Source of the DNA: Gammaproteobacteria bacterium
GTDB taxonomy: Bacteria > Pseudomonadota > Gammaproteobacteria > Pseudomonadales > Pseudohongiellaceae
DNA length: 36,682 nucleotides
Assembly (NCBI GenBank): GCA_030832825.1
Contig: JAURIJ010000028.1
Span: 1 to 36,682 of the forward strand
Direction: 5' to 3'
In this document: positions 34,781 through 36,682 of the stretch, piece by piece
How positions within the stretch are numbered: the first letter of the stretch is position 1
How the letters are laid out: each line of letters begins with the position of its first letter
The notes under the pieces: generated by a model
The model's input: only the letters and a program-made list of their open reading frames with translations
What the model was told of the DNA's origin: nothing
The model's database searches: none
Made by a program: the position numbers and the translations under genes

Positions 34781-35971
34781 ATGCAACGACGTCAGTTCCT
34801 GCGCGGCTCCGCCGCCCTGCTTTCCACCGCCGGCGCCAGCCGCGCGCTCGCCGTGGACACCCCCGCAGTGGTCGGCCCGGCGGCTGCCAGCCTGCAGTCG
34901 GACGACCTCCCTCTTGCCCCCATTCGCGCCAGTGCCGACCGCATCATCGAGATGAATGTCTGTACCCGGCCCTTCCGGGCGCAGGGGCCGCGCATCGAGC
35001 TGGAGCGCATTGGCCGCCGCCAGGTCGTGCACAATTATGGGCACGGCGGCAGCGGCTGGTCCCTGTCCTGGGGCAGCGGCCTGCTGGCCACGCAAATGGC
35101 GCAGAGCACTGGCGCGCAGCGCATCGCCATCGTCGGCTGCGGCGCCATCGGCCTGACCACGGCGCTGGTCGCCCAGCAGGCGGGTCTGAGCGTGACCATC
35201 TATGCCAGCGAGCGCCCTCCCTATGTGCGCTCACAGTTCGCTACGGGCTCGTGGACGCCGGATTCGCGCATCTGCACGGCCGAGTTCGCCGCGCCCTTCG
35301 CCGAGCGCTGGGAAGCCATGGCGCGCTATTCCTTCCGCCGCTATCAGGCACTGCTGGGCGTGGCGGGGGATCCGGTGGAATGGCGCGACATGTACAGCCT
35401 GTCCGAGCGTGCGCCCGGCACGCCGTCACCCCACGGGGAATCGACCGAGCCCGAGTACCCGGATTTCGAGGACGCCCTGCTGGCCGACCTCACTCCGCGC
35501 GCTGTGGACCTGAGCGCTCACGCCCATCCCTTCCCCACGCCCTATGTGCGACGCCGGCCGGCCCTGGTGTTCAATATCGCCAGTTACTCACGCCTGCTGC
35601 TGGAAGAATTCGAGCGCGCGGGTGGCCGCATCGAGACGCTGACGCTGCGCGAGCGCAGCGATTTCGCCGCGATCGACGAGCGCACCATCGTCAATTGCAC
35701 CGGCTATGGCGCGCGCGCCCTGCTCAATGACGACACGATCATTCCCGTGCGCGGCCAGACCTGCAAGCTGATCCCCCAGCCCGAGGTGCACTATGGCCTG
35801 AACTACGGCGATCGCCGCGTCTCGGTGTATCCGCGCCGCGACGGCCTGCTGGTGCAGGCGCAGGCCGAGGGCGATTTCAACAACGACAAGGAAAACCTCG
35901 ACCCTCAGGAGTCGATCACGGCCGTCGAGCGCCTCGCGCAGATCGTGCACGAGATGAAGCTCAAGGGCTGA
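34781..35971 (+). CDS. Tat-exported D-amino-acid-oxidase-like FAD oxidoreductase, apparently circularly permuted
   Basis: A protein of 396 aa. Seen: a twin-arginine signal (RRQFLRGSAALL, likely cleavage after ALA at about 24), implying export of a folded, cofactor-loaded protein. Family motifs occur in an unusual order: RPFRAQGPRIELER and VVHNYGHGGSGWSLSWG (84-98), which are C-terminal in ordinary D-amino-acid oxidases, come first; the FAD Rossmann motif IVGCGAIGLTTAL (GxGxxG 119-124), normally N-terminal, comes next; NCTGYGARAL (305-314) and RGQ (324-326) follow; and the protein ends soon after DGLLVQAQAEGDFNN. The ordinary family oxidises D-amino acids to 2-oxo acids, ammonia and peroxide. 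The ATG at 34781 follows GAGGA by 4-5 nt. The substrate here is unproven. Confidence 0.85.
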   Translation: MQRRQFLRGSAALLSTAGASRALAVDTPAVVGPAAASLQSDDLPLAPIRASADRIIEMNVCTRPFRAQGPRIELERIGRRQVVHNYGHGGSGWSLSWGSGLLATQMAQSTGAQRIAIVGCGAIGLTTALVAQQAGLSVTIYASERPPYVRSQFATGSWTPDSRICTAEFAAPFAERWEAMARYSFRRYQALLGVAGDPVEWRDMYSLSERAPGTPSPHGESTEPEYPDFEDALLADLTPRAVDLSAHAHPFPTPYVRRRPALVFNIASYSRLLLEEFERAGGRIETLTLRERSDFAAIDERTIVNCTGYGARALLNDDTIIPVRGQTCKLIPQPEVHYGLNYGDRRVSVYPRRDGLLVQAQAEGDFNNDKENLDPQESITAVERLAQIVHEMKLKG

Positions 35972-36006: not shown

Positions 36007-36682
36007 ATGAACGCACGCCCCCTGGATTCGGCACTGGTCAGTGTGGACTGGCTCGCTGCCGCCCTGAGCGCTCCCGTTGAGCTTGGCGCTCCCTTGGTGC
36101 TGCTGGATGCCAGCTGGCACATGCCGGCGGCGGCACGCGACGGCGAGGCCGAATGGCGGGCGGAGCGCATCGGCAACGCCGGCTTCTTCGACTTCGACCG
36201 GCGTATCTGCGACCGCGACTCGCCGCTGCCCCACATGCTGCCGGACGAAGCGCTGTTCACCACGGAAATACGCCGCCTGGGCGTGCAGCAGGACAGCGTG
36301 GTGGTGGTGTACGACAGTGTCGGCATCTTCTCGGCGCCGCGTGCCTGGTGGATGCTGCGCGCCATGGGGCACTCCCGGGTGGCGGTGCTTGATGGCGGCC
36401 TGCCGGCCTGGAAGCAGGCGGGACATGCCGTGAATCGGGACGCGCCGAAAGGTGTCTCTGACCCCATGGCGGGGAACGCATTCACGGCGCGTTTGAGCAC
36501 GTCGCTGGTCTGCGACTGGCGCGAGGTGCTGCGGGCGACCACAGCTCCGGATGTCTGCATTCTGGATGCCCGCTCGGCGGATCGCTTCCACGGCCGGGCG
36601 CCGGAACCGCGTCCAGGACTGCGCGGCGGTCACATGCCGAGCGCTCACAGCCTGCCCTTCGATCAGCTGGTGCAGGGCGGCC
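36007..36682 (+). CDS. sseA: 3-mercaptopyruvate/thiosulfate sulfurtransferase (rhodanese), partial
   Basis: Open at the right edge; 225 residues visible. Tandem-rhodanese sulfurtransferases of the SseA type move sulfur from 3-mercaptopyruvate to acceptors. Seen: LLDASWHMP (32-40), GFFDFDRRICDRDSPLPHMLP (split: FFDFD at 60-64 and SPLPHMLP at 72-79), VVVYDSVGIFSAPRAWWML, VLDGGLPAWKQAG, then the second domain with ILDARSADRFHGRAPEPRPG and GGHMPSA. The catalytic Cys loop (CGSG in SseA) lies beyond the window. No signal peptide is evident. The ATG at 36007 has AGGAG 5-6 nt upstream and lies 35 nt after the oxidase stop, so the two are likely one operon. Confidence 0.92.
   Translation, partial: MNARPLDSALVSVDWLAAALSAPVELGAPLVLLDASWHMPAAARDGEAEWRAERIGNAGFFDFDRRICDRDSPLPHMLPDEALFTTEIRRLGVQQDSVVVVYDSVGIFSAPRAWWMLRAMGHSRVAVLDGGLPAWKQAGHAVNRDAPKGVSDPMAGNAFTARLSTSLVCDWREVLRATTAPDVCILDARSADRFHGRAPEPRPGLRGGHMPSAHSLPFDQLVQGG

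Follow-up and report, generated by a model that had tools for sequence, protein, structure and literature searches.

A circularly permuted relative of D-amino-acid oxidase with a predicted export signal in a gammaproteobacterium of the family Pseudohongiellaceae

The window analyzed here is the 36,682-nucleotide contig JAURIJ010000028.1 (assembly GCA_030832825.1) from a gammaproteobacterium of the family Pseudohongiellaceae. Near its end it carries a gene for a flavoprotein related to D-amino-acid oxidase (DAAO) and D-aspartate oxidase. No other match of this kind was present in the same genome, a draft of 2.7 Mb in 72 contigs. The protein begins with a twin-arginine-type signal (residues 1 to 24) and a linker. 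These are followed by a block that starts with RPFR at residue 63 and runs through HNYGHGG to the WG motif at G98. The flavin adenine dinucleotide (FAD)-binding motif GCGAIG comes next, at residues 119 to 124, ahead of the remainder of the chain. An earlier, sequence-only reading had given these coordinates, frame, and motif positions, and all were correct when the open reading frame (ORF) and its translation were reread. The gene has the following parts.

34781..35971, + strand: coding sequence of the circularly permuted DAAO-like flavoprotein (ATG at 34781, 396 amino acids plus stop)
34781..34852, + strand: twin-arginine-type signal peptide, residues 1-24, read from the sequence, with probable cleavage after ALA-24
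34931..35104, + strand: moved block, equivalent to the canonical C-terminal part, residues 51-108 (RPFR, HNYGHGG...WG, and last helix)
34976..34978, + strand: codon of Arg66, equivalent of the DAAO arginine that binds the substrate carboxylate
35105..35119, + strand: residues 109-113, where the old C and N termini are now joined, a loop from helix 96-108 to strand 114-118
35120..35968, + strand: canonical N-terminal part, residues 114-396 (start of the FAD Rossmann fold and substrate domain)
35792..35794, + strand: codon of Tyr338, near-invariant among the permuted rows
35822..35824, + strand: codon of Ser348, which stands where DAAO has its active-site tyrosine
35903..35965, + strand: new C-terminal helix, residues 375-395, ending at about canonical residue 269

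The window protein is a relative of DAAO and D-aspartate oxidase whose chain opens between canonical positions of about 269 and 274. Both signatures of the family are present. The FAD-binding GxGxxG of the first Rossmann strand is GCGAIG, and its three glycines were found in 45/45 rows of a permuted set from Gamma- and Alphaproteobacteria that includes the window. The C-terminal signature RPxR...H-x-YGHG...WG lies at residues 63 to 98, as seen in the sequence and in profile matches. The canonical order, with its FAD motif at the N terminus, is inverted. We have therefore filed the protein as a permuted sister group and not as a DAAO proper. The circular permutation proposed in the sequence-only reading was supported by sequence searches, by a structure model read against a canonical control, and by relatives with a common order and cut.

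A phmmer search against PDB sequences retrieved human D-aspartate oxidase (E value, 2.2e-16) as well as DAAOs. The three printed alignments were crossed: query residues 54 to 107 fell on the C-terminal part of the target, and pieces of residues 109 to 373 fell on its N-terminal part. Residues 54 to 106 aligned to residues 274 to 329 of human DAAO (2du8). A profile of 24 permuted rows retrieved the Rasamsonia DAAO (E value, 2.1e-37), and its four printed alignments were crossed in the same way. The Pfam DAO profile (PF01266) also matched in inverted order within the one ORF. Its positions 301 to 353 matched at 34937-35098 (24.3 bits; E value, 3.2e-5; under the family cutoff when taken alone), and its positions 1 to 297 matched at 35120-35947 (67.8 bits).

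The order was measured by rotation. A hidden Markov model (HMM) of 319 positions was built from 21 canonical bacterial DAAOs and run on the core of the window protein from residue 45. The native core gave two pieces, of 105.7 bits (HMM 3 to 256) and 47.9 bits (HMM 260 to 315), so the family content is present once and rotated. The best of 352 rotations opens before residue 111 and gave a single match of 159.4 bits over HMM 3 to 315. With leave-one-out models, all 21 canonical controls ran as one domain, and all 21 split when rotated. When each permuted row was rotated at its FAD strand, the single-domain score rose in 31/45 rows; the other 14 scored about 0.4 to 1.1 bits lower and were still split in two domains. 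Domain order is therefore the better measure. In native order, the C-terminal piece came first and the N-terminal piece second in 45/45 rows. A strict filter on domain order was passed by 36 of these. Their first piece starts at HMM 242 to 267 and their second ends at HMM 193 to 258 (at 249 to 258 in 31/36). The other nine were checked as printed and had the same order, with C-terminal pieces that start at HMM 214 to 240, at or below the filter bound of 240. Since the starts and ends of the pieces cluster on the HMM, the cut is about equal across the rows.

A confident AlphaFold2 model gave strands 55 to 66, 71 to 77, and 80 to 86 and helix 96 to 108 in the moved block. Its predicted local distance difference test score was below 50 for residues 1 to 37 and 98 for the block in the region of the joint. 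Structure searches aligned residues 113 to 391 to DAAO residues 1 to 269 and left residues 51 to 108 unaligned. The moved block consists of strands followed by a helix, as does the C terminus of the canonical control. The model contains the helix in which the chain had been said to end. The joint of the old termini had been put at about 15 residues. It is about 5 (residues 109 to 113), because in the model helix 96 to 108 is the old C-terminal helix and strand 114 to 118 is the first FAD strand.

Relatives with the same order had been called for, and they were found across Gamma- and Alphaproteobacteria; throughout the 45-row set the order was inverted and the cut lay at about one place. Within the window's own family, 81/137 genomes had a match at an E value up to 0.001, and 79 of these, counting the genome of the window, were below 1e-47. 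An even sample across the phylum gave 20/398 genomes with a match of 217 bits or more, the genome of the window again among them, and the next best among the matches listed scored 36 bits. Two of these 20 carriers have an in-frame stop. A class-wide protein search matched 7/274 genomes; besides the window's genome all matches were weak (best E value, 7.3e-8), and the one that was read closely (L048) has the canonical order. Carriers include [Pseudomonas] boreopolis, Asticcacaulis, Brevundimonas, and Caulobacter. Plasmids of Kozakia, Niveispirillum, and Rhizobium also carry the gene, and complete plasmids are among the replicons with the permuted order. Carrier genomes in one contig include G536, G678, G428, G616, and G718, all within the 45-row set.

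Left out of this set were loci with defects (L064 and L065, in-frame stop; L002, L009, L015, L016, L019, L027, and L028, truncated, masked, or split), near-duplicates (L004, L020 to L024, and L026), further copies from g8, a genus of the window's family (L032, L037, L038, L042, L043, and L045), and own-family matches without locus sequence. Regions L078 to L097 and L124 to L142 were used for neighborhood analysis only. Of the 21 canonical sequences, 20 came from Actinomycetota and one, L048, from the class to which the window belongs; L122, which matched only in part, and L104, a repeat of L018, were excluded.

A tree of the 45 permuted rows (rotated) and the 21 canonical rows split into these two groups at 100/97; it has two long branches, an odd letter composition in 11 rows, and no third outgroup. 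Because one branch parts the permuted rows from the canonical rows and the permuted rows have the cut in common, a single old event would fit, short of proof. L073, L074, and L075 form a deep permuted clade.

Assembly error and fusion with a second copy were rejected as sources of the order. It recurs in independent and partly finished genomes, including finished replicons, the gene is single in its genome, and no second complete DAAO was found fused to the window protein. An artifact of assembly or annotation, or a decayed gene without function, is thus barely conceivable. The window does lie on a draft contig, and some relatives (G034, G031, G606, and G528) have broken copies. The complete plasmids and one-contig genomes, the open frame, and the ratio of nonsynonymous to synonymous substitution rates (dN/dS), which was 0 to 0.18 outside the signal region, all speak against such a reading. 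For the moved block, dN/dS against L002, L003, L004, L005, and L006 was 0.00, 0.045, 0.033, 0.094, and 0.069. For residues 113 to 396, it was 0.061, 0.107, 0.116, 0.176, and 0.135. The block was lower than the remainder in 5/5 comparisons; in those with L005 and L006, synonymous sites are almost saturated. Strong purifying selection acts on the moved block.

The N terminus of the window protein, MQRRQFLRGSAALLSTAGASRALA, reads by eye as a clear twin-arginine signal. The Pfam TAT_signal profile gave 14.5 bits against a cutoff of 22.7. A pattern search of the 45 rows found RR followed by a hydrophobic stretch in 43 and a lipobox in 28. In L039 the pattern matched at an RR further along the chain, and the signal of this row can be seen in the sequence. 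L073 and L075 have no export signal. Permutation therefore does not require export, and the two are separable. The sequence-only reading had called permutation together with twin-arginine translocation (Tat) export unusual for the family. A predicted signal is the rule among permuted rows, but it is not tied to the permutation.

The active site is conserved in part. Arg66 and the place of Ser348 presumably correspond to R283 and Y228 of DAAO in human numbering. The substrate-carboxylate arginine is present in 44/45 permuted and 21/21 canonical rows. In a single member, L062, RPFR is RPFL and this arginine is a leucine. Almost no variation occurs in the HxYGHGG and WG residues. Position 338 is Tyr in 44/45 permuted rows and Trp in the other. 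R63, H84, Y86, G87-G89, G98, G119, G121, and Q326 of the window protein are invariant in both the permuted and the canonical sets.

We read the window protein as a naturally circularly permuted relative of DAAO and D-aspartate oxidase that is exported by the Tat route and oxidizes a D-amino or similar acid, with a probability of roughly 0.72. It is most likely an FAD-dependent enzyme, either oxidase or dehydrogenase, that is exported by Tat and acts on D-amino (or similar) acids, with substrate and electron acceptor presumed. The active-site tyrosine is absent from the window protein (Ser348) and from all 21 rows of its clade, clade I, which have Ser (14), Gly (2), Asn (2), Ala (1), Phe (1), or, in L076, Glu at this place. 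It is Tyr in 24/24 other permuted rows and 19/21 canonical rows. The window protein has kept the arginine and lost the tyrosine, and its substrate or chemistry may therefore differ. Together with the near-invariant Tyr338, Ser348 suggests a shifted substrate or acceptor in this clade.

By computation, and relative to DAAO and D-aspartate oxidase, the chain is opened in the loop between the helix that ends at about canonical residue 269 and the strand that starts at about 274. The last 50 to 60 canonical residues now come first, with the old C-terminal helix leading through about 5 residues to the FAD-binding strand. One old event, probably of duplication, fusion, and trimming, may have given rise to this order. 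The protein would fold with FAD in the cytoplasm and then take the Tat route to the periplasm. In the clades with a lipobox it may be anchored in the membrane. In the periplasm it would oxidize a D-amino acid, or an amino or imino acid like it, with the carboxylate held by Arg66. The electron acceptor may be oxygen, in which case hydrogen peroxide would form, or a carrier of the periplasm such as cytochrome c.

The neighboring genes bear on the electron acceptor and the substrate. Two sets of neighborhood ORF lists were made; the second covered 53 loci, and the DAAO ORF was recognized in 52 of them (L086 lacks it by the filter). No conserved operon that would name a substrate was found; neighborhoods vary by clade, and no neighbor was seen across clades. 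The permuted enzyme could be a respiratory dehydrogenase of the periplasm that acts on D-amino acids or another amine and passes electrons to cytochrome c rather than oxygen, a reading that is possible but short of even odds. In Kozakia a cytochrome c gene lies 5 bp downstream, and in g8 a same-strand gene for a secreted cytochrome-like protein lies 83 to 2221 bp downstream at 16/22 loci. The g8 protein (L095, L097, and L124 to L142) contains CxxCH and matches Cu2_monoox_C weakly. At 1e-5, Pfam gave no match in two neighbor ORFs of other loci, nor in L095 and L142; L095 has weak cytochrome c and Cu2_monoox_C matches. The export signal of 43/45 rows fits such a dehydrogenase as well. Neither the window nor the other loci of the first set of ORF lists has such an adjacent gene, however, and the g8 synteny may be plain inheritance. 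A peroxiredoxin-family gene near 6 g8 loci (one representative Pfam scanned) fits peroxide production at least equally.

Peptidases could instead free D-amino acids that the permuted enzyme deaminates outside the cytoplasm, in turnover of the cell wall or of D-peptides. L006 has a gene of this kind, LD-carboxypeptidase-like (S66), 59 bp downstream. In Kozakia, genes for hydrolases of the S9-peptidase and beta-lactamase families lie upstream, and an M3 oligopeptidase gene is near 5 g8 loci (one representative Pfam scanned). They differ by genome, each occurs in few, and they form no common operon; this role is somewhat unlikely. A gene for a rhodanese-family sulfurtransferase comes after the oxidase gene in the window (36007-36682, truncated at the window end), as it does in L003 and L005. 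A sulfur pathway, in which D-cysteine becomes 3-mercaptopyruvate for the adjoining sulfurtransferase, is very unlikely: the pair is limited to three close relatives, and the sulfurtransferase, unlike the oxidase, has no export signal by eye. A wider proposal takes in one large, undescribed proteobacterial permuted family of single origin that moved outside the cytoplasm. The window's clade would have gained a new chemistry (Tyr228 lost, Tyr338 fixed) and would act as periplasmic dehydrogenases that feed cytochrome c, and the new N terminus would serve as an oriented membrane tether. We consider this combination unlikely.

DAAO is a flavoenzyme of the textbooks, and many of its structures have been solved. 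The permuted DAAO relative shares with the eukaryotic DAAOs and D-aspartate oxidases (6rkf, 1kif, 2du8, 7ct4, and 1c0k) the FAD and substrate parts, RPxR, HNYGHGG, and, in the model, the fold of residues 113 to 391. It differs in its inverted motifs, joined old ends, export-type signal, loss of the C-terminal tail, and Ser348 in place of the active-site tyrosine. Canonical bacterial DAAOs differ in that all 21 have the canonical order and lie on the other side of the 100/97 branch. Other enzymes of the DAO superfamily are glycine oxidase, sarcosine oxidase, and L-amino-acid deaminase. We know of no natural circular permutation within this flavoenzyme superfamily. Swaposins, lectins, and bacterial glucanases are natural circular permutations and represent the same kind of evolutionary change. 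Pfam and NCBIfam gave general matches only (best NCBIfam match, 27.5 bits against a cutoff of 250.8). No description of a permuted DAAO was present among the matches listed in open-licence literature, and this absence is weak evidence. The enzyme family is known, and its natural circular permutation is undescribed as far as we searched. Linear profiles match in two crossed pieces, which makes it easy to annotate permuted proteins as ordinary FAD-dependent oxidoreductases; Kozakia and Rhizobium are examples.

A widespread natural permutant offers a direct probe of which of the chain ends are important to folding, to the loading of FAD, and to export by the Tat route. Rotated enzymes could be paired with unrotated ones for testing how permutations arise and persist. 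The permuted enzyme also points to a possible oxidation of D-amino acids outside the cytoplasm of Proteobacteria.

Upstream of the window gene are housekeeping genes that we take, from their sequences, to be prs, rplY, pth, and ychF. The copy in L028 (G034) matches query residues 1 to 217 only. G031 has two matches, which are one copy split over two frames. These partial and split copies probably reflect decay of the gene in some relatives. The copy in L004 (CAMCRC010000026.1), from a metagenome-assembled genome labeled Klebsiella pneumoniae, is 83% identical to the window protein; the label is probably that of a mislabeled bin. In loci L085, L087, L089, and L091 of family f205, a gene that we presume from its sequence to be hslU-like starts 36 to 79 bp after the permuted DAAO gene. 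In L089 and L091 a presumed hslV-like gene lies upstream, at 19 and 382 bp, and the DAAO gene is lodged in the protease operon. The Rhizobium plasmid copy sits between a gene for a berberine-bridge-like FAD oxidase and a gene for a thiamine-diphosphate-binding protein.
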